In this document: piece after piece, positions 27,346 to 57,925 of the stretch
Layout: each line of letters opens with the position of its first letter
How positions within the stretch are numbered: the stretch's first letter is position 1
NCBI RefSeq assembly: GCF_024519725.1
Contig: NZ_JALJRK010000008.1
Coordinates: 69,040 to 133,039, forward strand
DNA from: Microvirga sp. Mcv34
Lineage (GTDB): Bacteria > Pseudomonadota > Alphaproteobacteria > Rhizobiales > Beijerinckiaceae
DNA length: 64,000 bases
Direction: 5' to 3'
Translations under genes and position numbers: made by a program
The notes under the pieces: model-generated
What the model was told of the DNA's origin: nothing
Databases searched by the model: none
The model's input: the letters and a program-made list of their open reading frames with translations, nothing else

Positions 27346-27370
27346 GGAACCGCCCTTCGCCCGCAACGTT
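27346..27370 (+). promoter_or_regulatory. EcfG-type general-stress promoter
   Basis: GGAAC-N16-CGTT, an exact match to the alphaproteobacterial EcfG/SigT consensus. It lies about 80 bases upstream of the DUF892 gene on the same strand. Confidence 0.7.
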
Positions 27371-27449
27371 CTTCCCACGCTGCACGACACGCCATCGAGA
27401 TGATGGCGTTTGACGATCAGACATCACGGATTTTGGGAAGGATTGCGCT

Positions 27450-27953
27450 ATGGGCCTTTTCTCGAAGGACATCAAGTCGTTGGATGACCTCTTCATCCAC
27501 ACCCTGCAGGACATCTACTACGCCGAGCAGCAGATCACGAAAGCGCTGCCGGAGATGATCGAGAAGGCGAGCGACCCGCAGCTGAAGCAGGCGTTCCAGA
27601 CCCACCTCGGCGAAACCCAGCAGCAGATCCAGATGGTCGAGCAGGTGTTCCGCATGCACGGCCACGACCCGAAGGGCGTGACCTGCCCGGCGATCGACGG
27701 CATCATCGACGAAGCCCAGGAGATCGCAGGCGACATCGACGACCCGCAGGTTCTCGATGCGGCGCTCCTGGCCGCCGCTCAGGCGGTCGAACACTACGAG
27801 ATCACCCGCTACGGCACGCTCGTCGCCTGGGCCAAGCAGCTCGGCCGCGAAGACTGCGCCGGTGTGCTGCACCAGATCCTGGATCAGGAAAAGTCCACCG
27901 ATCAGAAGCTCAACCGGATCGCCGAGAGCAAGATCAACACGAAGGCCGCGTAA
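27450..27953 (+). CDS. DUF892 ferritin-like stress protein (YciF/YciE type), copy 1
   Basis: 167 aa, predicted four-helix ferritin-like bundle: LFIHTLQDIYYAEQQITKAL, AFQTHLGETQQQIQMVEQVF, and the helix AAAQAVEHYEITRYGTLVAW with paired glutamate/histidine residues that could bind metal. YciE/YciF relatives are osmotic or general-stress proteins with unproven activity. It is transcribed alone from a probable EcfG promoter and ends at a good terminator. A second copy lies at 40296; the two share the AAAQAVEHYEITRYG helix and the ending NTKAA. Confidence 0.88.
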   Translation: MGLFSKDIKSLDDLFIHTLQDIYYAEQQITKALPEMIEKASDPQLKQAFQTHLGETQQQIQMVEQVFRMHGHDPKGVTCPAIDGIIDEAQEIAGDIDDPQVLDAALLAAAQAVEHYEITRYGTLVAWAKQLGREDCAGVLHQILDQEKSTDQKLNRIAESKINTKAA

Positions 27954-38945: not shown

Positions 38946-39022
38946 GCGCCCGTAGCTCAGCTGGATAGAGCACCAGACTACGAATCTGGGGGTCAGAGGT
39001 TCGAATCCTTTCGGGCGCGCCA
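38946..39022 (+). tRNA. tRNA-Arg (anticodon ACG)
   Basis: GCGCCCG and CGGGCGC form the acceptor stem, TAGCTCAGCTGGATAGAGC the D arm, CAGACTACGAATCTG the anticodon arm with ACG, and GAGGTTCGAATCC the T arm. CCA is encoded. No integrase or duplicated 3' end is seen nearby. Confidence 0.97.
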
Positions 39023-39242: not shown

Positions 39243-39410
39243 CTACACCTCGGCCGCCGGGGTGATTCCGAGGTCGGTGAGCTTGGCTCGAACCTCCGTG
39301 ATCGGCCGTTTCAGCTTCAGGCTGATCACCGAGACCGGCGCTCCCTCGCGGGCGAGGGACAGAAGAGCCTGGACTGCCTCGTAACTCCAATGATCTCCGG
39401 CCGGGTTCAT
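39243..39410 (-). CDS. small conserved hypothetical protein (55 aa)
   Basis: 55 aa starting MNPAGDHWSYEAVQALLSLA and ending DLGITPAAEV, with KRPITEVRAKL in between. It looks like one small helical, helix-turn-helix-like domain, but I cannot name a family. AGGGAG 9-10 bases before the ATG supports translation. An EcfG-like promoter (GGAAC-N16-GGTT) stands about 90 bases upstream on the same strand, so stress induction is inferred. It is divergent from the GlsB gene. Confidence 0.6.
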   Translation of the reverse strand: MNPAGDHWSYEAVQALLSLAREGAPVSVISLKLKRPITEVRAKLTDLGITPAAEV

Positions 39411-39499
39411 GGCGTGCTTCTCCCTGTGAACGAAGCGCAAGCGTCCGTCGCAAGTGCGGCGAGATGATGAAATGACGGTTTGGGAAATGGTTCCGCCGC

Positions 39500-39524
39500 A
39501 ACCTTAGCCGAGGATGCGCGTTCC
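39500..39524 (-). promoter_or_regulatory. EcfG-like promoter of the 55-aa gene
   Basis: On the reverse strand GGAAC (39520-39524), 16 bases, GGTT (39500-39503). One base differs from the CGTT consensus. Confidence 0.5.
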
Positions 39525-39556
39525 TTGAGGAGGCAACGCAGACCAAGGACCACAAC

Positions 39557-39823
39557 ATGAGCATTCTCTGGACCATCATCATCGGCTTCGTGGCAGGTGT
39601 GATCGCTAAATGGATCATGCCCGGACGGAACGAACCCTCCGGCTTCATCATGACGACCATCCTGGGCATCGTGGGTGCCGTGGTCGCCACCTATCTCGGT
39701 CAGGCTCTGGGCTGGTACCGGGCCGACGAAGGGGCAGGTTTCATCGGCGCCATCGTCGGCGCTATCGTCGTGCTCTTCATCTATGGCCTGATCGTCGGAC
39801 GCCGCTCGACGTCGTCGTACTGA
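39557..39823 (+). CDS. GlsB/YeaQ/YmgE family membrane protein (transglycosylase-associated)
   Basis: 88 aa with three hydrophobic helices: WTIIIGFVAGVIAKWIMPG, IMTTILGIVGAVVATYLGQ and GFIGAIVGAIVVLFIYGLI. The GFVAGxIAKxxxPG start is diagnostic. Family members are small, often stress- or stationary-phase-induced inner-membrane proteins of unknown activity. It ends at a convergent terminator shared with DUF2892. Confidence 0.9.
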   Translation: MSILWTIIIGFVAGVIAKWIMPGRNEPSGFIMTTILGIVGAVVATYLGQALGWYRADEGAGFIGAIVGAIVVLFIYGLIVGRRSTSSY

Positions 39824-39850
39824 TTGATTCCAGGATCGAGCCGAAACACC

Positions 39851-39877
39851 AAGGGCCACAGCGAGACTGTGGCCCTT
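39851..39877. terminator. convergent terminator between GlsB and DUF2892
   Basis: AAGGGCCACAG and CTGTGGCCCTT form a perfect 11-bp stem with loop CGAGA, followed by CTTGCATTT. Confidence 0.8.
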
Positions 39878-39911
39878 CTTGCATTTGCGTCCGCCTGCTC
39901 TCCGTTGATGC

Positions 39912-40148
39912 TTACCCGTGATGGGCGAGCCGGTCCTGGTCGTGCGAGCCCATGAGGGCCGCCTTCACTGGGCAATTGCCTACATAGCCGCGCCAGGCAA
40001 GATAGGAGCCACCTGCGAGCGCGAGAATGTTCAAGAGGGGGTTGGGACGCGGTTTGGCCGCCGCCGCCGCCAGGCCGAGCCCGGCCAGCATGTAGGCTCC
40101 GCGCTCGACCGTGCTGAGGTTGGGCTCTCCGTCGATCATATTCGTCAA
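39912..40148 (-). CDS. DUF2892 (YgaP-like membrane domain) protein
   Basis: 78 aa. The start NMIDGEPNLSTVERGAYMLA and the GGSYLAWRGYVGNCPVKAAL segment match the DUF2892 family of short two-helix membrane proteins, with the typical CPVK-like cysteine. The role is unknown. A GGAAC-N17-CGTT motif lies 40-65 bases upstream on the reverse strand, back to back with the promoter of the second DUF892 gene. Confidence 0.82.
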   Translation of the reverse strand: MTNMIDGEPNLSTVERGAYMLAGLGLAAAAAKPRPNPLLNILALAGGSYLAWRGYVGNCPVKAALMGSHDQDRLAHHG

Positions 40149-40187
40149 GTCTGCTCTCCTTCATGGACTTTGCATGGACCTTGGCCG

Positions 40188-40213
40188 AACGCGACGCGAA
40201 GCCGTGTTGTTCC
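40188..40213 (-). promoter_or_regulatory. EcfG-type promoter of the DUF2892 gene
   Basis: On the reverse strand GGAAC (40209-40213), 17 bases, CGTT (40188-40191); full consensus with the longer permitted spacer. Confidence 0.6.
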
Positions 40214-40240
40214 TCGTAAACCATGAGCTGCAGAACGGCA

Positions 40241-40265
40241 GGAACCCCGAAGCTTGACCCTCGTT
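40241..40265 (+). promoter_or_regulatory. EcfG-type promoter of DUF892 copy 2
   Basis: GGAAC-N16-CGTT, exact consensus, with the -10 element 31 bases before the ATG at 40296. Confidence 0.75.
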
Positions 40266-40295
40266 GAGTCCACGCCCAACGAAGGAGTTGTTACG

Positions 40296-40790
40296 ATGGC
40301 AGCCAAGGAAAAGACCCTGAACGACCTGTTCCTTCACACGCTGAAGGACGTCTATTACGCCGAGAAGCAGATCCTGAAGGCCCTGCCGCGGATGGCCAAG
40401 AACGCCGACTCCGAGGAGCTGAAGCAGGCCTTCGAGACCCACCGCGAAGAAACGGAAGGCCAGATCGAGCGTCTGGAGAAGGTTTTCGAGATGCTCGGCA
40501 AGCCGGCACGCGGTGTGCAGTGCGAAGCCATCAACGGCATCATCGAGGAAGGCAAGGAAGTCATGGAAGACTTCGCCGACAGCGAGGCTCTTGATGCGGG
40601 CATCCTCGCCGCCGCGCAGGCCGTCGAGCATTACGAGATCACCCGCTACGGCTCCCTGAAGACCTGGGCCGGGGAACTCGGACTGAACGATGCCGTGAAG
40701 CTTCTCGAGCAGACCCTCGAGGAGGAGAAGAAGACCGACAAGCTGCTGACCCAGCTTGCCGAGGCGCGTGTGAATACCAAGGCCGCCTGA
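40296..40790 (+). CDS. DUF892 ferritin-like stress protein (YciF/YciE type), copy 2
   Basis: 164 aa, the same four-helix bundle as the protein at 27450: LFLHTLKDVYYAEKQILKAL, AFETHREETEGQIERLEKVF and AAAQAVEHYEITRYGSLKTW, ending NTKAA. GAAGGAG eight bases before the ATG at 40296 fixes the start; an earlier in-frame GTG-like start would fall inside the promoter. Exact EcfG promoter upstream and a good terminator downstream make it a single-gene stress unit. Confidence 0.9.
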   Translation: MAAKEKTLNDLFLHTLKDVYYAEKQILKALPRMAKNADSEELKQAFETHREETEGQIERLEKVFEMLGKPARGVQCEAINGIIEEGKEVMEDFADSEALDAGILAAAQAVEHYEITRYGSLKTWAGELGLNDAVKLLEQTLEEEKKTDKLLTQLAEARVNTKAA

Positions 40791-40809
40791 ACGACGTCCA
40801 CGAATAAAC

Positions 40810-40836
40810 GGCCTCGCGCTCCCGCAGCGCGGGGCC
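40810..40836 (+). terminator. rho-independent terminator of DUF892 copy 2
   Basis: GGCCTCGCGCT pairs with AGCGCGGGGCC (one G-T pair) around CCCGC, followed by TTCTTGCTTT. Confidence 0.8.
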
Positions 40837-40869
40837 TTCTTGCTTTCACGGCTGCCCGATCAGTCGGGA

Positions 40870-41118
40870 TCAATGCCGATGTGCCTGATCCGGCGCGACC
40901 TTCGTGTCCAGGGTCAGGCGCATGGATCCCGACGGGGTGACCTCAAGAGTGGCCTTCGTGGTGTCGGGGTATTCCACCAGATGCATGAAGGCTAAAAGCC
41001 TCAGCCTCGCAATCGGAGGAAAGTGAGCGAGGCATTGCGCCATGTTCTGGAACGCATGTTCCATCAGCTCTTCCTGGCTGGCATGAAACGGGGGAGAGAT
41101 TTCCTCAGGCAGCGACAT
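40870..41118 (-). CDS. unknown 82-aa protein coupled to luxI
   Basis: 82 aa: MSLPEEISPPFHASQEELME, a helical middle (AFQNMAQCLAHFPPIARLRL, then LAFMHLVEYPDTTK) and a beta-like tail with TLEVTPSGSMRLTLD. No family recognised. The ATG at 41118 lies inside the end of luxI (14-base overlap), so it is translated from the same message. Conservation of such a partner would suggest a modulator of the autoinducer circuit, but nothing in the sequence proves that. Longer in-frame readings upstream only retrace luxI. Confidence 0.65.
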   Translation of the reverse strand: MSLPEEISPPFHASQEELMEHAFQNMAQCLAHFPPIARLRLLAFMHLVEYPDTTKATLEVTPSGSMRLTLDTKVAPDQAHRH

Positions 41119-41746
41119 GGGGCACCCTTTCCAGGACGGGAGACATCTGGTCATCACGGACGAGCATGGAATCGCGCAGTCCGGCAAGGCGGCGAACTTG
41201 ATCCAGGCTTTCTCGGGAAATCGTGATCGCCGCCGCAATGCAGGGCTGACCTTCGATCACGGTCGGTAGGCCCAGAGGCTTCACCTTGAAGCCGGTCTGC
41301 TGCCAGCGGGGTAACCACCACATCTCGACCACAGCCGTGAGTTCCGTGATGCCTTCCTGAAGGCAGAACTCCTGCACGGCGGCGAGAAGGCGACAATCCG
41401 TCCGCCCCATGCGCCTTTCCTTGATTACGAAGTACCGCGTCCATTCGAAGATATGTTCGGCCCGAGGGATGCCCCGTTGTGCCATGTGGCCGAAGACCTC
41501 GCTCAGCATGTGGGGCATAACGGTCGGATAAAGCCGCTGACCTCCCACAACGTGATCTTGGTCGAGGGCCAGCAGGTATACCGCGTTGCCGTTGTCGTAA
41601 GCATCGATCTCCCGTCCGTCGGGGCGATGCAGGTCGCGCCATCCGCGCTCCTTGACGAAGACCTCATGCCGAAGGCGGAAGTATTCTTCCAACGGGTCTT
41701 CGTATAAATGTCGATTGTCCCTGGTGATCACGTGAACTTTCGTCAT
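41105..41746 (-). CDS. acyl-homoserine-lactone synthase, LuxI family
   Basis: Makes the AHL autoinducer from SAM and an acyl-ACP or acyl-CoA. 213 aa. Conserved family residues are seen in YFRLRHEVFVKERGW (Arg, Phe, Trp), EIDAYDNGNAVYLLALD (the acidic pair), GGQRLYPTVMPHML and FEWTRYFV (Glu-x-x-Arg). I cannot tell the acyl chain or donor. It lies 88 bases downstream of luxR on the same strand and overlaps the unknown 82-aa gene. GGGAG nine bases before the ATG is the ribosome site and sits inside an inverted repeat. Confidence 0.93.
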   Translation of the reverse strand: MTKVHVITRDNRHLYEDPLEEYFRLRHEVFVKERGWRDLHRPDGREIDAYDNGNAVYLLALDQDHVVGGQRLYPTVMPHMLSEVFGHMAQRGIPRAEHIFEWTRYFVIKERRMGRTDCRLLAAVQEFCLQEGITELTAVVEMWWLPRWQQTGFKVKPLGLPTVIEGQPCIAAAITISRESLDQVRRLAGLRDSMLVRDDQMSPVLERVPHVAA

Positions 41747-41756
41747 CAGATGCCGC

Positions 41757-41780
41757 TCCCCTATGCGTATTAAGCGGGGA
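41757..41780 (-). promoter_or_regulatory. imperfect dyad over the luxI ribosome site
   Basis: TCCCCTATGCGTATTAAGCG followed by GGGA: a 24-base imperfect inverted repeat with TCCCC/GGGGA outer arms in the luxR-luxI gap. Its inner edge overlaps the luxI Shine-Dalgarno. It could be a LuxR-binding box or an RNA hairpin; this is not certain. Confidence 0.4.
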
Positions 41781-41834
41781 AGTCTTCTCGCGTCCGACGG
41801 AAGAAAGATATTGTAGGAAATTACAGGTGGGGCG

Positions 41835-42578
41835 TCATAACTGGATCAACTTGTATTGCAGCGCCCGTGCAACGGCCTGGGTCTTGTTGACTGCCTCGAG
41901 CTTCTGGCACGCACTGACGATATGGGCCGTGACCGTGCGCTCCGTAATCCCGAGGATTTCGCCCGTATCCGCCGCCGATTTCCCTGCTGCGGCCCAGATC
42001 AGGGCCTCTCGCTCGCGAGGCGTGAGCAAACTGGGAGCAACCGGGGACTGGGTCTCGAGCAGCCTTCGAGCGCGCTCGAAGGCATACATGGCCATCAGGT
42101 GGAGCGCGGGCTTCGTCCGAGGGGAGAGGTCCAGGTCCACACCGCTCATAGAGAAACAGGCCTCGTAACCGTTGACCCCATGAATGGGCAGGCAGAAGCC
42201 GTCCCGCATCCGGAAATCCGTGGCCCGGTCCATGACCTCGGCGGCTTTCCGCTCCGTCATCCGATCATAGGGAGCCTCCGACCACTCGAAGGGCTGGGTG
42301 GTGTTCTTGCATAGGCGGATAATCGGATCGGACCTTACGTAATCATGCTTGGCATAGATGTCGAACCAGCCCATAGGCCACTTTTTGAGAAGGACAACCT
42401 GTTCGAACCGTTCCTTCGGGTTCGGCAGTCCCGTCATGATGAAATTCTCGAAGCCGAACAGGGAAAAGGTGCGTGCGACCGCCTCCACCACGTCGTCCGG
42501 GCTGATCAGGTCATCGAGGCTGTCGATGAAGGCGAAGGCTTCCGTCGCATGGTCGAAGGCGCGATCGCTCAAGGGCAT
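41835..42578 (-). CDS. LuxR family quorum-sensing regulator
   Basis: 247 aa. The N-terminal autoinducer-binding domain shows the conserved W/Y/D/P/W set (WFDIYAKHDYVRSDPIIR and then FEWSEA). The C-terminal LuxR helix-turn-helix is LTPREREALIWAAAGKSAAD followed by TGEILGITERTVTAHI. Adjacent luxI makes it the probable cognate receptor. It is transcribed away from an XRE regulator across a 130-base AT-rich spacer. Confidence 0.93.
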   Translation of the reverse strand: MPLSDRAFDHATEAFAFIDSLDDLISPDDVVEAVARTFSLFGFENFIMTGLPNPKERFEQVVLLKKWPMGWFDIYAKHDYVRSDPIIRLCKNTTQPFEWSEAPYDRMTERKAAEVMDRATDFRMRDGFCLPIHGVNGYEACFSMSGVDLDLSPRTKPALHLMAMYAFERARRLLETQSPVAPSLLTPREREALIWAAAGKSAADTGEILGITERTVTAHIVSACQKLEAVNKTQAVARALQYKLIQL

Positions 42579-42708
42579 CTCCGAAAGATCTACAACCTAT
42601 GTGTTATATTGTTATATTATGCAACTCATAGTTTGCTAATGGCTTTGCGCTACCAAAGGTTATATAATTCACGTAAGTTGCGCAAGAAGCCGGATGCAGG
42701 AGTGCCCT
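42579..42708. promoter_or_regulatory. AT-rich divergent promoter region of luxR and the XRE gene
   Basis: Strikingly AT-rich for this genome (TGTTATATTGTTATATTATG, then GGTTATATAATTCACG). Short repeats TTATAT occur three times, and AACCTATG/CATAGTTT form an imperfect dyad. TTGCGCAA lies near the XRE end. It must hold both divergent promoters. Confidence 0.6.
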
Positions 42709-43095
42709 TTGCAGAAGAAGTCCCCCAACGAGATTGATCGGCATATCGGAAGCCGGGTCAGGGCCAGGCGGATCATGCTCAGGATGAGCCAGGAGAAGCT
42801 CGCGGATGCCCTGGGGCTCACATTTCAGCAGGTCCAGAAATACGAGAAGGGCGCCAACCGCATCGGCGCGAGCCGCCTGCTCCACATCGCGGGCATTCTG
42901 GACGTGAGCTTCGAGTTCTTCTTCGAAGGGCTTCCCGGTCTGCGGGCGGGCGGGTTCTCCGACGACAGCTTGATGGCCGAGTTCCTGACGCGTTCGGACA
43001 GTGATCGCCTCGTGCGAGGCTTCTTGAAGCTGAAGGATGACGAGGCCCGCCGGAAGGTCGCCGATCTCGTCGACTGGCTCGCATCCGCCGGGTAG
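42709..43095 (+). CDS. XRE family transcriptional regulator
   Basis: 128 aa. The helix-turn-helix is VGSR-like SRVRARRIMLRMSQEKLADA followed by LGLTFQQVQKYEKGANRIG, then a variable C-terminal half (FFFEGLPGLRAGG, VRGFLKLKDDEARRKVADLV). This is the widespread Rhizobiales type whose members start M-x-KK-x-PNxIDxHVGSRVR. I prefer the TTG at 42709, which gives that start and has CAGGAG six bases before it; an in-frame ATG at 42694 would add five residues. Target unknown; divergence from luxR suggests possible cross-control. Confidence 0.82.
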   Translation: MQKKSPNEIDRHIGSRVRARRIMLRMSQEKLADALGLTFQQVQKYEKGANRIGASRLLHIAGILDVSFEFFFEGLPGLRAGGFSDDSLMAEFLTRSDSDRLVRGFLKLKDDEARRKVADLVDWLASAG

Positions 43096-43164
43096 GGCAC
43101 CCAGGCGGCGATAGGCCCGCCAAGCATACTTCACCTCCTAAAGCATTGAGCATCGGAGACCTTC

Positions 43165-43189
43165 GGAACCCGCCGCGCTTCTAATGGTT
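43165..43189 (+). promoter_or_regulatory. EcfG-like promoter of the envelope-stress cluster
   Basis: GGAAC-N16-GGTT, 28 bases before the first ATG of the four-gene cluster. Confidence 0.6.
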
Positions 43190-43217
43190 ACTCACTCACG
43201 ATTGAAAGAGGTTGACC

Positions 43218-43739
43218 ATGGGCGTGGGACAGCAGAACACAAACAAGCAGCAGGACGACGGCAACGAGGATTGGGATGCGCTCAAGGGCGATGTCGGCGA
43301 CATCGCAGGCGCTGCCGTGGAGCGCAGCCGCTACTTCATCGATTCCGCGCGGGAACAGGCGACGGACTACGTCGACCGCCGCAAGGACGACATCGCGCAA
43401 TCGGTCGAAGATTTCGCCAACTCCCTGCGCGAATCCACCCATTCATTCGATGAGCGGCCCAATATCCGTGCCGTCGTTGACACCGCAGCGGAAGGCCTGG
43501 AGCAGCTTGCCGGCTCCATCCGCGAGCGCACCTTCGCGGATTTCTTCAACGACTTCGAGGATGTGGTCCGCCGCCGCCCGGCCACCGTCGCGGCCGCGTC
43601 CGTGGCCATCGGCTTCCTGGCCGCGCGCTTCATCAAGAGCACGGCGGAGGATCTTCGCTATGACGACGTGCGCGCAAGCCAGGCTCAGCAGGCACGGTCC
43701 CGTGCGCGGCAGGCCCAGCGCACGCGCTCCGGCGCCTGA
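43218..43739 (+). CDS. YqjD/ElaB-like membrane-anchored stress protein
   Basis: 173 aa. Acidic, helical N-terminal two thirds (DVGDIAGAAVERSRYFIDSA, EQATDYVDRRKDDIAQSVED) and one C-terminal hydrophobic segment (RRPATVAAASVAIGFLAARF) before a basic, Q/R-rich tail (ARSRARQAQRTRSGA). This layout resembles the YqjD/ElaB/DUF883 group, which tethers ribosomes to the inner membrane in E. coli; I infer the likeness from architecture. The ATG at 43218 has AAAGAGG six bases before it. First gene of a four-gene run with an EcfG-like promoter. Confidence 0.7.
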   Translation: MGVGQQNTNKQQDDGNEDWDALKGDVGDIAGAAVERSRYFIDSAREQATDYVDRRKDDIAQSVEDFANSLRESTHSFDERPNIRAVVDTAAEGLEQLAGSIRERTFADFFNDFEDVVRRRPATVAAASVAIGFLAARFIKSTAEDLRYDDVRASQAQQARSRARQAQRTRSGA

Positions 43740-43750
43740 CGGAGGCTGCC

Positions 43751-44143
43751 ATGCAGGGCAACGGAAACCAAACGATCCAGGGTCTCGTGGGTGAGGCTCT
43801 GCGGGAATCCACCGATCTCGCGCAGAAGGAATTCACCCTCTTCAAGACCGAGGTGTCCCAGAACATCCGCACGCTTTTCATGGGTCTCGCCATGGTTGTC
43901 GTAGCGGCGATCTTCGCCATCGCGGCCGTTATGCTGCTGACCGACTCCCTGGTGAAATGGCTGGCGACCGTCGTCCATTCGGAAGCGCTCGCCGCGCTCA
44001 TCGTCGGCGGCGTGCTAGCCGTGATCGCCATCGGCCTCGGGCTGTGGGGACGTAGCGCCATGTCGTCGTCCACGCTCACGCCGAAGCGGACGATGCATTC
44101 GCTCAAGCGCGATGCGGAAGTCCTGTCGGAAAGAGGTGCATGA
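43751..44143 (+). CDS. phage holin family / YqjE-like membrane protein
   Basis: 130 aa. A helical N-terminus LVGEALRESTDLAQKEFTLF is followed by two strong membrane helices (LFMGLAMVVVAAIFAIAAVM and ALAALIVGGVLAVIAIGLGL). This is the actinobacterial/YqjE-type 'phage holin' superfamily, which despite the name is chromosomal and linked with YqjD-like partners. GGAGG precedes the ATG. The stop overlaps the next gene (ATGA). Confidence 0.82.
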   Translation: MQGNGNQTIQGLVGEALRESTDLAQKEFTLFKTEVSQNIRTLFMGLAMVVVAAIFAIAAVMLLTDSLVKWLATVVHSEALAALIVGGVLAVIAIGLGLWGRSAMSSSTLTPKRTMHSLKRDAEVLSERGA

Positions 44144-44559
44144 TGACGTCACAGAGTCTGCAGGAGCTGGAGAGCGACATTGAGCGCAGTCGCGCTCAGC
44201 TCGACCAGACGATCGATCGTCTCCAGAACAAGATGACAGTGTCCGGTGTGGTCGACGATATGCTCGGCACCGCCCGAAGCGGCCAGTACGGGCCGCTCTA
44301 CGACAAGGTTCTGGATACAGTCAGGCGTAACCCCGTGCCGGTTATGCTGATCGCCATGGGCATCGGGCTTCTCGCCTACCGTCTCGGACGGTCAGGTGCA
44401 CCCCGGAGGACACGCCTCATCGCGGCCGACGAGGATCTGATCACGGAGGAACATCTCCTGATGGAAGCGGAGGATCCTCGTCTTTACGGGGCGGAGGCCG
44501 CGCCGCTGAGCACGTCCGATCCGATGTTCGAGCGACCGGGCACACCTTCTCGATTTTAA
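44140..44559 (+). CDS. DUF3618 membrane protein
   Basis: 139 aa. The start SLQELESDIERSRAQLDQTI followed by DRLQNKM is diagnostic of DUF3618 proteins, and one membrane helix follows (PVPVMLIAMGIGLLAYRLG). The rest is an acidic tail. Two adjacent ATGs (44140, 44143) are possible starts. Function unknown; the family is usually found with YqjE-like genes, as here. Confidence 0.85.
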   Translation: MMTSQSLQELESDIERSRAQLDQTIDRLQNKMTVSGVVDDMLGTARSGQYGPLYDKVLDTVRRNPVPVMLIAMGIGLLAYRLGRSGAPRRTRLIAADEDLITEEHLLMEAEDPRLYGAEAAPLSTSDPMFERPGTPSRF

Positions 44560-44580
44560 TCAATGAAACAGGAGTTTTCC

Positions 44581-45276
44581 ATGGCCAACAACAAGAGCGA
44601 ACCCGGCAAGCCGAGCGGTGCTCAATCCGGCACGACAGGGAACGTCTCCGCCGGAACGTCGGTGGGCAATATCGGCGAGCCGCCCATGCCGCATGCCCAT
44701 GAGCAGCGGTCGACGCAGGGCTCCGGCGCGACCGGCAGCCAGCAGGCATCCGGCCAGCAGAAGGGCCAGTCCTCCCAGCAGAACGCGCAGGGCCAGGGAG
44801 GATCGATCTCCGACAAGGCTCAGCAGGCTGCCGAACAGGCCCGCCAGAAGGCGGAAGAGGCCTACGAAGGTGCTTCCGACTGGGCGCGCGACACTTATGA
44901 CCGCGCCTCGCATTGGGCCTCTGACACCTATGAGGGCCAGCGTCGCCGCGTGAATCAAATGGGCGGCCGTTCCGCCCGCGCCTTCGGCAATGCTCGCGGC
45001 GGCGTCCAAAGCTACGTGTCCGAGAACCCGATGGTCGTGGGCCTCGTGGGACTGGCCGCGGGCCTTCTCCTCGGCGCCCTGCTGCCGCGCACCCGTCGCG
45101 AGAACGAGATGTTCGGCGAATGGGCGGACGAGGTCCGCAACCAGGGCCTGCGCTATGCCCGCGATGCTGCCAATCGCGGCCGCGAATATGTCGAGGATAC
45201 CTTCAGCGGCGACGAAGCGCGCTTCAGCCGCCATGAGAGCGAGTTCAATGGCCAGCGCGATTCCAACCGCCACTAA
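44581..45276 (+). CDS. YqjD/DUF883-like protein with Q/S/G-rich N-terminus
   Basis: 231 aa. Residues 1-75 are low-complexity and rich in Gly, Ser and Gln (GSQQASGQQKGQSSQQNAQG). They are followed by an amphipathic 11-residue-repeat-like helix (DKAQQAAEQARQKAEEAYEG, DWARDTYDRASHWASDTYEG) similar to LEA/apolipoprotein repeats. One membrane helix comes next (NPMVVGLVGLAAGLLLGALL), then a charged tail. CAGGAG before the ATG at 44581 fixes the start. It ends the cluster before a strong terminator. An envelope or desiccation role is inference only. Confidence 0.75.
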   Translation: MANNKSEPGKPSGAQSGTTGNVSAGTSVGNIGEPPMPHAHEQRSTQGSGATGSQQASGQQKGQSSQQNAQGQGGSISDKAQQAAEQARQKAEEAYEGASDWARDTYDRASHWASDTYEGQRRRVNQMGGRSARAFGNARGGVQSYVSENPMVVGLVGLAAGLLLGALLPRTRRENEMFGEWADEVRNQGLRYARDAANRGREYVEDTFSGDEARFSRHESEFNGQRDSNRH

Positions 45277-45300
45277 GGCTTGAAGCGCAGCATCGATATG

Positions 45301-45328
45301 AAAAGCGCCGGCGAAAGCTGGCGCTTTT
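45301..45328 (+). terminator. rho-independent terminator of the envelope-stress cluster
   Basis: AAAAGCGCC and GGCGCTTTT extended by an inner GC/GC around a GAAA tetraloop, followed by a T. Confidence 0.92.
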
Positions 45329-45910
45329 TGTTGAGTACGTGAATGCCGTCAAGCTGCGAAGAGCGCGCTCAAGCATCGGACGCAAAAGTGGCTACCCGCA
45401 TTGCATGTAAAGATGTTCTTGCCGAAACGCATGGCGCAAAAAACAACGGCCACGGCGAGACGATGCGCGTACATCCGGCGTCATCATCTCGGCATCGTGA
45501 CCGCTTCTGGCAAGCGTTGATGCCGCCAGGTTGACGATAAGATAGGAATGATGCCTCCGCCTTCAAGGGGCTCGCGGGCCTCATCTCCGCGCAGCATCCA
45601 TTTTTTAACCGTAATGCCGAAAAAATTCAGTCCGGCGAAACTCGCGCTGGAACGAGCCACCTTCGAACTTGTTGCTCCTGCACAAGAAAAGGATTTCCTA
45701 TCCTCCAGCGCATCGTGCGGAGAAATGGGCCGGTTTTCGCTGGCGCAGCCCTCCGGGGCCGTAGCTTGCGATGCGCCACTTAAGGGATCGAGCATCGGAT
45801 GAGGTCTCAAGGTGCAAATGCGCCTTCGGGCATGTCCGCATTCGGGTCCGATGATCGAGACGTTTGGGAGAGTGGCGATCCCGTCGAAGGGTCGGGTGTT
45901 GGAGTTGGGT
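45329..45910. other. gene-free interval with two degenerate dispersed repeats
   Basis: Nearly 600 bases without a supported gene. AGCATCGGACGCAAAAGTGG occurs at about 45372-45391 and GAGCATCGGATG...GGGTCCGATGATC at about 45790-45858, both members of the dispersed palindromic family. An open frame at 45548-45802 has no recognisable protein character. Confidence 0.5.
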
Positions 45911-46264
45911 ATGCGTATTCTGATCCTGGAAGACGATCCGTGGATTGCCACTGACCTGCAGGCGATCCTCGAGTCGGACGGGCATGAGATCGTCGACTCA
46001 TTGAGTTCTCTCGACGAAGCCTACCTGCATCTCGACGATGAGTTTGATTGCGCGCTGCTTGACATCGATGTGATCGGCGGCAAGTCATTCGGTGTGGCGG
46101 AGGCTCTCGCCGCGCGGCGGATTCCCTTCGTCTTCGTGTCGGCATCGCAGCCCTCCGACCTGCCTCGGACCCTCCGGCAGGCGGCTTTCGTGGCGAAGCC
46201 CTTCGAGGAGCAAACGATTCTTCAATCCGTCGATCATCTCTCCCTCGGCCGCTTGCCTTGCTGA
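45911..46264 (+). CDS. single-domain response regulator (REC only)
   Basis: 117 aa, a lone receiver domain: acidic pocket LILEDDPW, phospho-acceptor aspartate in DCALLDIDVIGG, the switch serine in FVFVSASQ, and the conserved lysine in AFVAKPFEE. There is no output domain, so it acts as a phosphate shuttle or protein-binding switch. The ATG at 45911 begins the domain; upstream frame is repeat sequence. The UvdE-type gene follows after 46 bases and may share its transcript. Confidence 0.88.
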   Translation: MRILILEDDPWIATDLQAILESDGHEIVDSLSSLDEAYLHLDDEFDCALLDIDVIGGKSFGVAEALAARRIPFVFVSASQPSDLPRTLRQAAFVAKPFEEQTILQSVDHLSLGRLPC

Positions 46265-46310
46265 CCGCATTGCAGGAACCTGTCGCGACCTGATGGCTTC
46301 ATCTTTCGCA

Positions 46311-47351
46311 ATGCAAAATTCGCGCTTCGGCTTCTGCTGCAAATACATTCCCGAGGACGGCGACGCTCAGACCGCGCGTGCGATGAACACAAGCACGGTC
46401 ACGATGACCTATCTCGGCCGGCTCGATCCGGCGAGCGCCTACGACAAGATAAGCGCGGTCGTGTCCCACAATCTCGAAGCGTTCCGGCTGCAGATCGCCC
46501 ATGTGGCGACGCGGCCGAAGATCGAGCGTCTGCATCGCCTGTCGAGCGATCTTCTCCCCGGCTACACCCATGCCAGCTGCCGGGAGATCTACCGCGATCC
46601 GGACCTGCGCCGCCTGATCGAAACCCGGCTCGCGGCCATGGGGGAATTCGCGCGCGAGAAGGATGTGCGGCTCAGCATGCATCCGGGGCAGTTCTGCGTG
46701 ATCGCCTCCGCCAACCCGTCTGCGGCCGCCAATGGATTGGCGGAGTTCGAATACCATGCCGAGGTCATGGCGCTCATGGGCTACGGGGAAGGGTGGCATC
46801 CCCACGGTGCGCATATCAACATTCACGGCGGCGCGAAGGCACTCGGCGCAGAGGGAATCCGGGGCGGTCTCGCGCATCTGTCGCGCACGGCCCGCAACCT
46901 GATCACCCTCGAGAACGATGAGGTCAGCTTTGGTCTCGACGACCTCCTGCCCCTCGCGGACGATGTGCCGCTCGTCCTCGATCTCCATCATCACTGGATT
47001 ATGAGCCGGGGCGAGTACATCGAGCCGGACGATACCCGAATCGCGCAGATCATCGCTTCCTGGCGCGGCGTACGTCCGGTGAGCCACGTGAGCGTCTCCC
47101 GCGAGGACCTGCTGCCCGATCCGGACATGGATACGCTTCCCGACTTCGAAGCCCTGGTCGCGGCCGGGATCAAGCCGAAGGACCTGCGGGCCCATTCGGA
47201 CCTCATGTGGAACAGGGCCATCAACGATCTCGTGATGCGCCACCTATCGTGGTCAGATTTCGAAATCGAGGCCAAGCTCAAGAACATCGCCTCGGAGGGC
47301 CTGGCCCATCACCTCACGTTGCGGCAGGGCGTAGATCATGACTTTGAATGA
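46311..47351 (+). CDS. uvsE: UV damage endonuclease UvdE/UvsE
   Basis: Nicks DNA 5' to UV photoproducts and some other lesions, an alternative to UvrABC. 346 aa TIM-barrel with metal ligands in RLSMHPGQFCVIAS, AHINIHGGAK, LENDEVSFGLDDLLPL, VLDLHHHW and AHSDLMWNRA. SVVSHNLEA-like KISAVVSHNLEAFRLQIAH fits the family N-terminus. An in-frame ATG at 46293 would add six residues; neither start has a clear ribosome site, which fits coupling to the receiver gene upstream. Confidence 0.92.
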   Translation: MQNSRFGFCCKYIPEDGDAQTARAMNTSTVTMTYLGRLDPASAYDKISAVVSHNLEAFRLQIAHVATRPKIERLHRLSSDLLPGYTHASCREIYRDPDLRRLIETRLAAMGEFAREKDVRLSMHPGQFCVIASANPSAAANGLAEFEYHAEVMALMGYGEGWHPHGAHINIHGGAKALGAEGIRGGLAHLSRTARNLITLENDEVSFGLDDLLPLADDVPLVLDLHHHWIMSRGEYIEPDDTRIAQIIASWRGVRPVSHVSVSREDLLPDPDMDTLPDFEALVAAGIKPKDLRAHSDLMWNRAINDLVMRHLSWSDFEIEAKLKNIASEGLAHHLTLRQGVDHDFE

Positions 47352-47376
47352 TATTTCATTTTTTATGAGGAGCTCT

Positions 47377-47401
47377 GGAACCAAACCGATTTGGTGGCGT
47401 T
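47377..47401 (+). promoter_or_regulatory. EcfG-type promoter of a receiver-domain gene
   Basis: GGAAC-N16-CGTT, exact consensus, 31 bases before the ATG at 47433. Confidence 0.7.
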
Positions 47402-47432
47402 GTTGAGCATTGTGCAGTGAATCAAGAAGTCG

Positions 47433-47885
47433 ATGACCGCCGATCCCTCCACGGTTCTCCTCGTCGAAGACGAACCTCTCATCCGACTGTTCATCTCAGA
47501 TCTGCTTGAAGATGCCGGCTTCAGGGTGGTGGAGGCTGCCAACGCCACGGAGGCGATGGTGCTTCTGGAGGCCGGGCTGCCGGTCAACGTTCTCCTGACG
47601 GATGTGGACATGCCTTTGGGGTGCAGCGGCTTTGAGCTGGCGCACAGGGTCCACCGGGCTTGGCCCGAGACCGAGATCCTCATCATGTCGGGCCGGCAAT
47701 GGCCCTCGGAAGGGGACCTGCCGCCCGGTGCGGCCTTCCTTGCCAAGCCATGCCCCAACGAGGCGATCGTGTCCCATGTGGCCTCCGCTGCAGAGCGGAC
47801 CCGCCGCTTCGGCCATGTTGCCAAAAGTCCACGACCTGCGGTCGATCATGCAGGGAAGATCCTTCCCTTTCCGAAAACCGCCTAA
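47433..47885 (+). CDS. single-domain response regulator (REC only)
   Basis: 150 aa. Receiver domain with LLVEDEPLIRLFI, phospho-acceptor aspartate in VLLTDVDMP, switch serine in ILIMSGRQW and lysine in AFLAKPCPNEAIV. A 30-residue basic tail follows the domain. The exact EcfG promoter suggests that it is induced by, or feeds back on, the general stress response. Its kinase partner is unknown; the orphan kinase at 37404 is one candidate by proximity only. Confidence 0.88.
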   Translation: MTADPSTVLLVEDEPLIRLFISDLLEDAGFRVVEAANATEAMVLLEAGLPVNVLLTDVDMPLGCSGFELAHRVHRAWPETEILIMSGRQWPSEGDLPPGAAFLAKPCPNEAIVSHVASAAERTRRFGHVAKSPRPAVDHAGKILPFPKTA

Positions 47886-48069
47886 ATTCCTGAACTGCGG
47901 CTTGCTGCTTGCGCTGACCGGACATAAGCTCTGCCGGAATTGACCTTCTGTCAGGGGGCCGGGCTCCGGCAATGGAGCCGAGAGGTCCGACCGAAGGCTG
48001 GTCAATGAGCTTTTCGGGCCTGGTTCAGGGCTGTCGACGAGCTTTCCCATCCCATTCCCGGAGGAATAA

Positions 48070-48378
48070 ATGCCGACCAAGACTACAGACGGAAAAGCCG
48101 GTGCGAAGAAGGCTGCCCCGAAGGCCGAAGGCTCGAAGCCCAACGCTCTTCAGAAGCCCCTGCAGCCGTCCAAGGAACTGGCTGCCATCGTAGGCTCTGA
48201 TCCGCTGCCGCGCGGTGAGGTCGTGAGCAAAATCTGGGATTACATCAAGAAGAACAACCTTCAGAATCCCGAGAACAAGCGTGAGATCCTGGCTGACGAC
48301 AAGCTGCAGCCGATCTTCGGCAAGCCGAAGGTGACGATGTTCGAGATGAACAAGCACCTCGCCCAGCACCTGAAATAA
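48070..48378 (+). CDS. SWIB/MDM2 domain protein
   Basis: 102 aa. A lysine/alanine-rich N-terminus (KAGAKKAAPKAEGSKPNALQ) precedes a SWIB domain: LQPSKELAAIVGSDPLPRGE, VVSKIWDYIKKNNLQ, DDKLQPIFGKPKVTMFEMNK. The domain is best known from eukaryotic chromatin remodelling and from chlamydial proteins; stand-alone bacterial versions may bind DNA or topoisomerase. GGAGG before the ATG is a strong ribosome site. Confidence 0.9.
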   Translation: MPTKTTDGKAGAKKAAPKAEGSKPNALQKPLQPSKELAAIVGSDPLPRGEVVSKIWDYIKKNNLQNPENKREILADDKLQPIFGKPKVTMFEMNKHLAQHLK

Positions 48379-48396
48379 GCTTACGGATTGTAAGCT
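48378..48396. terminator. short hairpin between SWIB and a convergent gene
   Basis: AGCTTAC and GTAAGCT around GGATT, starting at the SWIB stop; no T run, so only a possible terminator. Confidence 0.4.
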
Positions 48397-48399
48397 CGC

Positions 48400-49017
48400 C
48401 TATGAATCCTGCCGCCACTGCGTGAGCGGCAGGATATCCGGCCGCTGGCCGGGAGCCTTCTTCCAGGGATCCACGGCCCAAGCCGTACCCGTCCGCCGCT
48501 CAGTGATCACGGCGGTGAAATGCGGGTAGCGCCCGTCGAGGAAGAAGCCGCGCGATTCCGGGTATTGCACCGCATGATGGGCCAGCAGCCCCTGTTCCTG
48601 CAGCACCAGGAGCACGCTCGTGGTGTTCGCGGTCTCGTCCAGACAATCCATCTGTCCGTAGACCCCCGACATCTGAGGCGGCGAACCTGGGGCGTCGGGC
48701 TTTCCCCCGAGTGACGTGGCCAGATAGGCCGTATAGGACCGGATCACCTCGGCGAGAGCCCGGCGTTCCGCGTCGGGCGAGCCCTGGCCGGCCCTGAGAA
48801 TCTCCCGGGCCCTGCTCAGCCATGCCCCATCGACCGAAATCGCCATCCGCCTCACGCAACCATAGCCGTGGCAGGCGATGATCCGGCTTCCCGACGGCCC
48901 CACATAGCCCTGCTGCTTGAACCAGCTCTGGGCGGGCAGGGATGCGGCGGCGGCTGGCGCCGCCATGAACACCAGGAAGGGCAGGGCCTTCAAAATGAGA
49001 AGTGGCGTCGCTCTCAT
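48400..49017 (-). CDS. secreted conserved protein with papain/transglutaminase-like triad
   Basis: 205 aa. Signal peptide [21 protein letters not shown] recognise no named family, but three blocks recall the catalytic triad of transglutaminase-like or papain-like cysteine enzymes in the right order: a cysteine in QMDCLDETANTTSVL (about residue 125), a histidine in GRYPHFTAVI and an aspartate in TAWAVDPWKK. An extra cysteine pair (ACHGYGC near 49-55) could form a disulphide. Periplasmic location is predicted. It is convergent with the SWIB gene and monocistronic. Confidence 0.72.
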   Translation of the reverse strand: MRATPLLILKALPFLVFMAAPAAAASLPAQSWFKQQGYVGPSGSRIIACHGYGCVRRMAISVDGAWLSRAREILRAGQGSPDAERRALAEVIRSYTAYLATSLGGKPDAPGSPPQMSGVYGQMDCLDETANTTSVLLVLQEQGLLAHHAVQYPESRGFFLDGRYPHFTAVITERRTGTAWAVDPWKKAPGQRPDILPLTQWRQDS

Positions 49018-49125
49018 GATGAGTTTACCTATCGGCGAGGTTGCAGCGATCCTTGGCCATATAGATCGGGCCGTTCATCTGCCCATAGGTTAAGCTTGCG
49101 CGCCCGTTACGACTTTGGAGTTCTC

Positions 49126-49989
49126 ATGTCCCGCATCGTCTTCCTGAACGGATCCTTCCTGCCGATCGAAGAGGCCAAGGTGCCCTTCATGGACCGTGGC
49201 TTCATGTTCGGGGACGGCGTCTATGAGGGCATCGGCATGCTCGACGGGCGCCTGATCGACAACGAGGCCCATCTGGAACGCCTGGAGCGTTCGCTCGCCG
49301 AGATCCGCATTCCCAATCCTTATAGCCGGGCCGAGTGGACCCGCCTTCAGGAAGAACTCGCGCACCGCAACGGCATGACCGAGGGCTTCATCTATTTCCA
49401 GGTCACCCGTGGAGTGGCCGAGCGGGACTTCTTCTTCCCCGAGGATCCCAAGCCGACGGTCGCGATGTTCACCCAAGCCAAGGCTATCGCCGATGCTCCG
49501 GCGGCCAGAACCGGCATCGCCGTCGTGACCGTGCCGGACCTGCGCTGGCAGCGGCGGGACATCAAGTCGATCAACCTGCTCGCCCAGGTGCTCGCCAAGC
49601 AGGCGGCCAAGGAGGCGGGCGCCCAGGAGGCTTGGCTGGTCGAGGACGGTTTTGTAACGGAGGGCGGCTCGTCGAGCGCCTTCATCGTGACAAGGCAGGG
49701 CAGCATCGTGGTGCGTCCGCTCTCCAACGCCATCCTGCCCGGCATCACCCGCAAGTCCCTGCTCAGGCTTTCGCAGGAAGACGGAATCGTCCTGGAGGAG
49801 CGCCGTTTCACGGTCGAGGAGGCCTACGATGCGGCGGAGGCCTTCCTGACCAGCGCCTCGAACTTCGTTCTTCCCATCGTGTCCATCGACGGACGCCCAG
49901 TCGGCGACGGCAAGCCCGGCCCGGTCACGAAGCGGCTGCGCGCGCTTTACCTTCAGATGGCAGCCGCGCCGGCCCTGGCAGCCGAATAG
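49126..49989 (+). CDS. D-amino acid aminotransferase (class IV PLP enzyme)
   Basis: 287 aa, fold type IV aminotransferase. MDRGFMFGDGVYEG at the N-terminus, the catalytic lysine in WQRRDIKSINLL (about residue 145), EAWLVEDGFVTEGGSSSAFI and NAILPGITR are family blocks. The pattern fits D-alanine transaminase more than branched-chain enzymes, so a role in D-Ala/D-Glu supply is likely. TTTGGAG before the ATG at 49126 fixes the start. Confidence 0.88.
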   Translation: MSRIVFLNGSFLPIEEAKVPFMDRGFMFGDGVYEGIGMLDGRLIDNEAHLERLERSLAEIRIPNPYSRAEWTRLQEELAHRNGMTEGFIYFQVTRGVAERDFFFPEDPKPTVAMFTQAKAIADAPAARTGIAVVTVPDLRWQRRDIKSINLLAQVLAKQAAKEAGAQEAWLVEDGFVTEGGSSSAFIVTRQGSIVVRPLSNAILPGITRKSLLRLSQEDGIVLEERRFTVEEAYDAAEAFLTSASNFVLPIVSIDGRPVGDGKPGPVTKRLRALYLQMAAAPALAAE

Positions 49990-49996
49990 CGTTGCC

Positions 49997-50021
49997 GGAA
50001 CCCGCTCTCGGGTCGCCCGTT
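49997..50021 (+). promoter_or_regulatory. EcfG-type promoter of a small secreted protein gene
   Basis: GGAAC-N16-CGTT, exact consensus, with the -10 element 21 bases before the ATG at 50043. Confidence 0.7.
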
Positions 50022-50042: not shown

Positions 50043-50399
50043 ATGAAGCGTGTGCTGGTCCTATCCACGATCCTGGCCGCCGGCCTCGGCACGGCGGCCC
50101 TGGCTCAAAATCCCGAGGTTCTGAAGCAGCAGGCCCCGAACATGCCTGCGCCGAGCCAGATGCCGGCCGAGAAGGTCGAGCCCGACAGCAACCTCTCCGG
50201 CCCGAACAACGGCCCGGCCGAGACCGGTTCGACCAAGACCCTGAGCGACAAGCTGGAGCAGAGCGACGGGGTGATCCGCCCGCCGGCGAACATCTCTCCC
50301 GACAACACCGTGCGTCCGCCGGTGCCGAATCCCGGCACGATGCCGGTGATCCCTCCGCCGGGTAGCCCCGGCGGCAATCCTCTGGTTGAACCCAAATAA
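50043..50399 (+). CDS. small secreted proline-rich protein
   Basis: 118 aa. Signal peptide KRVLVLSTILAAGLGTAALA with cleavage after ALA. The mature part is disordered and rich in Pro, Asn and Gly (PNMPAPSQMPAEKVEPDSNL, PPVPNPGTMPVIPPPGSPGG), with KTLSDKLEQSDGVIRPP in the middle, a motif I recall from secreted rhizobial proteins of unknown function. AAAGGAG precedes the ATG. An exact EcfG promoter makes stress induction likely. Confidence 0.75.
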   Translation: MKRVLVLSTILAAGLGTAALAQNPEVLKQQAPNMPAPSQMPAEKVEPDSNLSGPNNGPAETGSTKTLSDKLEQSDGVIRPPANISPDNTVRPPVPNPGTMPVIPPPGSPGGNPLVEPK

Positions 50400-57301: not shown

Positions 57302-57925
57302 CTATGCCCGGGAGCCCAAGACCGGAATGTGAGGCGCTGCCTTCAGAGGCAGGAAGCCGAGAAGACGCGGATCGTCGTCCACCTCGATGGCGCGGCGGTA
57401 CGGCGTGAAGCCCGAGCGTATGTAGAAGGGCAGGGCACCCGGCGAGTCGAGGGTGCAGGTATGCACAAAGAAGCGCTCGACCGGGGCGGCGAAAGCGCGG
57501 GCGATGGCTTCGCTCATCAGGAAACGCCCGGCCCCCTGGCCGATGAAGCTCGGAACCAGCCCGAGGAAGGCCAGTTCCACCTCTCCCTCGGTGCGGAAAT
57601 CGAGTTCGAGCAGGCCGACGTCGGCCGTGCCGTCGTACAGGGCATACGCCTCGACCTTGGAATCGTCGAGGATGGCCGCCAGTTCATCGTCCGGCATCAT
57701 CGCCCGACTGAACCACAGCCATGGCTCCCCGACCGTCCTGAACAGCGCCCGATAGCGCGGATGGTCCTGGTCGATCCGCTGCAGGCTCCAGTTCTCCGGC
57801 TTGCGGAACGGCGGCAGTCCGGGGTGCTCGCGCATCTCCAGATAGGTGACGATCGTCGCGATCTTCCCGTCCGGCAGGTCGGTGTACCCATTGAGGTCGA
57901 GTGTCGGTGCAGGTTCCGCCGTCAT
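57302..57925 (-). CDS. GNAT family N-acetyltransferase
   Basis: 207 aa. The acetyl-CoA site reads VELAFLGLVPSFIGQGAGRF followed by LMSEAIARAFA, with HTCTLDSPGALPFYIRSGFT as the C-terminal strand and helix. The N-terminal 60 residues form an extra strand/helix unit (GYTDLPDGKIATIVTYLEMR). Substrate unknown. Monocistronic, convergent with fliJ. Confidence 0.85.
   Translation of the reverse strand: MTAEPAPTLDLNGYTDLPDGKIATIVTYLEMREHPGLPPFRKPENWSLQRIDQDHPRYRALFRTVGEPWLWFSRAMMPDDELAAILDDSKVEAYALYDGTADVGLLELDFRTEGEVELAFLGLVPSFIGQGAGRFLMSEAIARAFAAPVERFFVHTCTLDSPGALPFYIRSGFTPYRRAIEVDDDPRLLGFLPLKAAPHIPVLGSRA

Follow-up and report, generated by a model that had tools for sequence, protein, structure and literature searches.

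Among the EcfG systems described to date, as far as the consulted parts of their publications go, Methylobacterium extorquens has the EcfG promoter consensus GAAC-N16,17-C/GGTT (PMC4814048), GCAAC is one of the two commonest EcfG -35 boxes in Sphingopyxis granuli (PMC7083833), and the table of EcfG-dependent genes of Sphingomonas melonis holds Ku, PRC-barrel and malto-oligosyltrehalose trehalohydrolase genes (PMC6599016). Here we analyzed a 64-kb stretch of Microvirga sp. Mcv34 (contig NZ_JALJRK010000008.1, 69,040 to 133,039; hereafter the window, numbered from its first letter) in which motifs of this kind precede genes between 39498 and 50399 and one outlying gene at 27450. Judged from sequence, these sites are very probably EcfG promoters, EcfG being the sigma factor through which alphaproteobacteria carry out their general stress response, and the promoter set belongs to an already known stress system. 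The literature searched, which included few subscription journals, held nothing joining Microvirga with EcfG, a Methylobacterium review only for Microvirga with PhyR, and, in the portions available, nothing on EcfG-type promoters for Microvirga with sigma factor, stress response and promoter; it likewise held nothing joining EcfG with DUF892, or YciF with the general stress response in alphaproteobacteria.

Conservation of the promoter motif

A program scan of the whole window revealed eight matches to GGAAC-N16/17-SGTT against 1.37 expected, a number reached by none of 100 shuffles, and four matches to the exact GGAAC-N16-CGTT against 0.39 expected, with one of 100 shuffles giving as many. 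The preliminary description of this region had listed seven sites (27346+, 39500-, 40188-, 40241+, 43165+, 47377+ and 49997+), four of them exact, with about 0.5 exact matches expected by chance and all placed shortly upstream of genes; the scan recovered every site at its place and strand, agreed on both figures, and put the -10 elements 21 to 89 bases ahead of the assigned gene starts (gene calls came from a codon-score script written for the analysis). That list therefore stands as a set of sites, with two amendments: at 39500 the plus strand gives the better reading, and a conserved site with a TGTT -10 box (45649-45673, +) had been overlooked. The eighth match, 57554-57578 (-), falls within the predicted coding gene 57302-57925 and is presumed to be chance.

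Evidence for the promoter assignment comes from retention of the motif in up to 20 Microvirga loci (L040-L058 and L071), where the genes of 30000-51500 with at least seven orthologues formed 25 families. The pattern GGAAC-N16/17-[CGT]GTT was kept in at least 80% of the relatives in six of these families and in none of the remaining 19, and seven families qualified when the -35 was written G[GC]AAC. The motif stood upstream of 39912 in 18/18 relatives, 40296 in 18/20, 43218 in 17/17, 45914 in 16/16, 47433 in 15/16 and 50043 in 16/16, the two misses at 40296 (L056 and L058) being non-syntenic places. For the outlying 27450 gene, whose orthologues were fetched separately, it was kept in all 23 close orthologues (L191-L213, with 76-99% identity), lying 67-88 bases ahead of the start with a spacer of 16 or 17; two of the 25 other genus genomes had only a more distant paralogue. 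The seven units follow the same order in 16 of the 20 loci; L042 stops early, and the other three (L056, L058 and L071) are non-syntenic.

This retention proved specific to both letters and spacing. When single spacers from 10 to 25 were compared, only 16 (five families) and 17 (one family) were conserved, and 10-15 and 18-25 gave none. Permuting the letters of GGAAC/CGTT gave 360 patterns, of which the real one had four conserved families, three had one and 356 had none, and 3000 random 5+4-mers yielded at most one conserved family each. The motif letters are invariant among the sites found in relatives; spacer drift is strong at 45914 and 47433 and slight at 43218, and it is also seen upstream of 50043, where the letters stay. 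These patterns argue that the promoter elements are under selection, and they provide for Microvirga a set of EcfG-type promoters backed by conservation, which sets likely sites apart from the many chance ones.

Predicted promoters and genes of the cluster

Each unit has a promoter of the GGAAC-N16/17-CGTT type on its sense strand, with 39557 having it only with GCAAC, 45914 with TGTT and 43218 with GGTT. The GGAAC-N16-CGTT promoter at 27346-27370 (+) lies outside the cluster and would serve a DUF892 gene (27450-27953, +; PF05974, E 2.6e-64), a paralogue, about 55% identical, of the DUF892 gene within it (40296-40790, +; PF05974, E 4.7e-64), whose nearest named relatives are from Microvirga. 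A small hairpin considered in the 27450 leader (27371-27449) was rejected, as an alignment fold of 19 sequences gave no consensus pairs. The promoter assigned to 40296, GGAAC-N16-CGTT at 40241-40265 (+), is divergent from GGAAC-N17-CGTT at 40188-40213 (-), assigned to a YgaP-like transmembrane protein (39912-40139, -; PF11127, E 1.4e-6; DUF2892 in the preliminary description). A tRNA-Arg (acg) at 38946-39022 immediately precedes the cluster.

At the left edge of the cluster, two motif readings overlap on opposite strands. GCAAC-N16-CGTT at 39498-39522 (+) stands 34 bases before the start of a small Transgly_assoc protein gene (39557-39823, +; PF04226, E 7.3e-15), which we take to be of the GlsB/YeaQ/YmgE type, and GGAAC-N16-GGTT at 39500-39524 (-), the reading first proposed, would serve a 55-aa open reading frame (ORF) at 39243-39410. 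The plus-strand elements are intact in 19/19 sequences including the window, 31-34 bases ahead of the start as is usual for the neighbouring promoters, and the minus-strand elements in 13/19 of the same sequences, so the site probably serves 39557 rather than the gene implied by the minus strand. That the minus-strand promoter is real, or that one overlapping site serves both strands, is the rather unlikely alternative: GGAAC is a better -35 than GCAAC, both readings are retained in those 13 sequences, and the ORF occurs in 16 relatives with a motif upstream in 11, next after the families reaching 80%, yet this reading requires a distance of about 89 bases together with a GGTT -10. Exact motifs paired across the two strands with a 2-base offset, which resemble this overlap and may be hairpins, were also seen at G000:C33:99946-99972 and C177:47367-47393.

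Farther downstream, GGAAC-N16-GGTT at 43165-43189 (+) precedes four consecutive plus-strand genes (43218-45276): 43218, called YqjD-like in the preliminary description and with a sub-threshold Pfam match only, 43751 (PF07332, E 4.5e-25), 44140 (DUF3618; PF12277, E 4e-9) and 44563 (no Pfam match). None of the last three had a motif ahead of it in the 17 relatives compared for each, and the four genes probably form one operon. The overlooked promoter, GGAAC-N16-TGTT at 45649-45673 (+), is assigned to a single-domain receiver protein (45914-46264, +; PF00072, E 7.6e-9), whose start was taken as 45914 and not 45851. Its motif was present in 24/24 genomes examined out of 26 searched, a sample that may overlap the 20-locus set and that omits G009 and G025, in which receiver matches were weak. 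In the window the motif lies 240 bases ahead of the start, versus 86-107 in 16 relatives and 64-107 in 23 other genomes, leaving about 150 additional bases between promoter and start in the window. Behind this receiver lies a gene for a UvdE-type UV-damage endonuclease (46311-47351, +; PF03851, E 2.3e-38), which had no motif ahead of it in any of 15 relatives and is perhaps transcribed by read-through from the 45649 promoter. Two exact GGAAC-N16-CGTT promoters complete the set: 47377-47401 (+), assigned to a second single-domain receiver (47433-47885, +; PF00072, E 2.2e-15), and 49997-50021 (+), assigned to a small protein (50043-50399, +) with an apparent signal peptide by eye and no Pfam family at E 0.01.

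The earlier view of the region as a stress regulon fits several units, which have EcfG-type promoters, and is too broad for the whole, since the genes for LuxI, LuxR, the XRE regulator and SWIB and the genes 40870, 48400 and 49126 showed no conserved motif among the Microvirga relatives; the same negative result was obtained for the aminotransferase gene. The segment 39500-50021 is accordingly not one contiguous stress island with every gene under the motif. The LuxI-type synthase (PF00765), LuxR-type regulator (PF03472, PF00196) and XRE-type regulator occupy 41105-43095, inside the cluster. LuxI and LuxR lie within the block in 14/17 syntenic loci and are absent in L050-L052, and for this reason they look like a separate insert.

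The PhyR-NepR-EcfG locus and motif use across the genome

The genome (6.18 Mb in 333 contigs) encodes PhyR (PF22029, PF22233 and a receiver domain), NepR (PF18557) and EcfG at one locus, with EcfG-type motifs back to back between nepR and phyR and facing both directions. Over 12 kb this locus has 11 motif matches where 0.28 would be expected, and ten strict sites fall in about 5.7 kb, far above what chance would give even with nine entered in the calculation. Across the EcfG1 loci of the genus (n = 25 including this genome, from 26 genomes searched with G025 left out), the nepR-ward site was present in 25/25 and the phyR-ward site in 17/25. EcfG was matched 10 times in the genome, several times at a low level, with four EcfG-like genes at 100, 74, 65 and 56% identity; a second NepR-EcfG pair at L038:4346-5204 (C122) has its own EcfG-type motif upstream of its NepR gene.

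By analogy with other species, from which the PhyR-NepR-EcfG partner switch is taken, stress would lead phosphorylated PhyR to bind NepR and thereby free EcfG. RNA polymerase carrying EcfG would then recognize a -35 of GGAAC (once GCAAC) and a -10 of CGTT (or GGTT or TGTT) with 16-17 bases between them. The genes transcribed would be the two DUF892 genes, the small membrane-protein genes, the four-gene set, the two single-domain receiver genes and the small secreted-protein gene, with uvdE perhaps co-transcribed behind one receiver gene. We infer both EcfG transcription of these genes and their induction by stress. Transcription from an ECF sigma factor other than EcfG that shares the GGAAC -35 is very improbable; AAC-containing -35 elements are common to ECF factors according to the part of the S. 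granuli study consulted (PMC7083833), and several of the 10 EcfG matches in this genome are low, but the -10 and the 16-17 spacing agree with the published EcfG consensus in the portions seen, and the same motif precedes nepR-ecfG in every one of the 25 loci.

The presence of several EcfG paralogues may also bear on the -10 letters. At 45649 the -10 differs by species (CGTT in 12, TGTT in 10 and GGTT in 2 of 24 genomes), yet GGTT at 43165 is constant in 18/18 sequences and N17 with CGTT at 40188 in 19/19, the window included in both counts. On these grounds it is conceivable, though doubtful, that the -10 box is a tuned letter and not noise, and that it could sort targets among the Microvirga EcfG paralogues. 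A link between the letter at 45649 and a third EcfG paralogue was considered and set aside: such a paralogue is present in 12/12 TGTT or GGTT genomes and in at least 7/12 CGTT genomes, kinship is mixed into this comparison, and nothing is claimed from it.

Genome-wide, N16-CGTT occurs 105 times versus 56 for the reversed pattern, and N17-CGTT 46 versus 38. The preliminary description had proposed scanning the genome for enrichment upstream of starts, and such enrichment was found: counting a site as promoter-positioned when it lies between genes and no more than 200 bases ahead of a start on its own strand, 49/101 N16 and 31/46 N17 sites qualified versus 8/72 reversed controls. The placement comparison covered 101 of the 105 N16 sites, all 46 N17 sites and 72 reversed sites out of 94, the others of that set not having been fetched or having fewer than 350 bases downstream; for N16-GGTT, counted only where it fell within fetched stretches, 7/18 sites were promoter-positioned. 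These figures point to a regulon comprising several dozen units in the genome. Pfam families were found in 28 of 30 hand-picked promoter-positioned genes, and the picked targets include four receiver proteins (one of them, L260, scoring under the curated threshold), Ku, DJ-1/PfpI, hemerythrin, Pmp3, PRC-barrel, BON, Fur, inositol-phosphate synthase and an alpha-amylase-family protein with CBM48. Outside Microvirga, the strict motif lies within 200 bases of 22/60 DUF892 homologues, and the reversed control of 0/60.

Several observations weigh against the EcfG promoter assignment. The relatives are non-independent samples, and the spacer at 43165 is conserved nearly as well as the motif. As 52/101 N16-CGTT sites fall outside promoter positions, the motif is a weak predictor on its own. 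The strict sites of the window number 4 in 9.8 kb, and about 0.29 such clusters are expected genome-wide at the genome's own site density, so that the claim for the window rests on conservation and not on density. The genome also holds a DUF892 paralogue (L216, 81%) that lacks the motif within 300 bases, and 38/60 DUF892 homologues outside Microvirga have no strict motif. Among 19 PF04226 matches from outside this genome, one (L322, 80% identical) carries the strict GGAAC-N16-CGTT on the plus strand and two a relaxed form, and 5/6 of the matches at least 60% identical have no motif at all. Chance matches in a GC-rich genome, kept only through the closeness of the species, could draw on that cluster expectation, on the 43165 spacer and on the genome's 105 + 46 strict sites set against 94 reversed ones, but such an explanation is hardly credible when spacers drift and motif letters stay at 45914, 47433 and 50043 and no permuted motif is conserved to a similar degree in those upstream regions.

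Comparison with described EcfG regulons

With the EcfG assignment, DUF892 proteins and single-domain receivers become testable candidates for targets of the general stress response. In Sphingomonas melonis Fr1 (PMC6599016), the EcfG regulon shows a comparable motif, GGAAC-N17-20-GTT, its table also lists GCAAC and GGTT forms, and its targets likewise comprise Ku, PRC-barrel, ferritin-like and trehalose-type genes; its single-domain receiver SdrG is linked to the stress response. A difference is that DUF892 is absent from the main text of that study. The EcfG1/EcfG2 regulon of Sphingopyxis granuli TFA (PMC7083833) resembles the present set in its GGAAC-N16-CGTT promoters, its frequent GCAAC -35 and its variable -10 boxes, and differs in that the main text contains neither DUF892 nor YciF. 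M. extorquens (PMC4814048) shares the promoter consensus and the possession of several EcfG paralogues. According to the part of that report consulted, it has no ecfG at the phyR locus and no ecfG with an EcfG-type promoter, whereas in Microvirga sp. Mcv34 nepR-ecfG is divergent from phyR, with EcfG-type motifs facing both ways.

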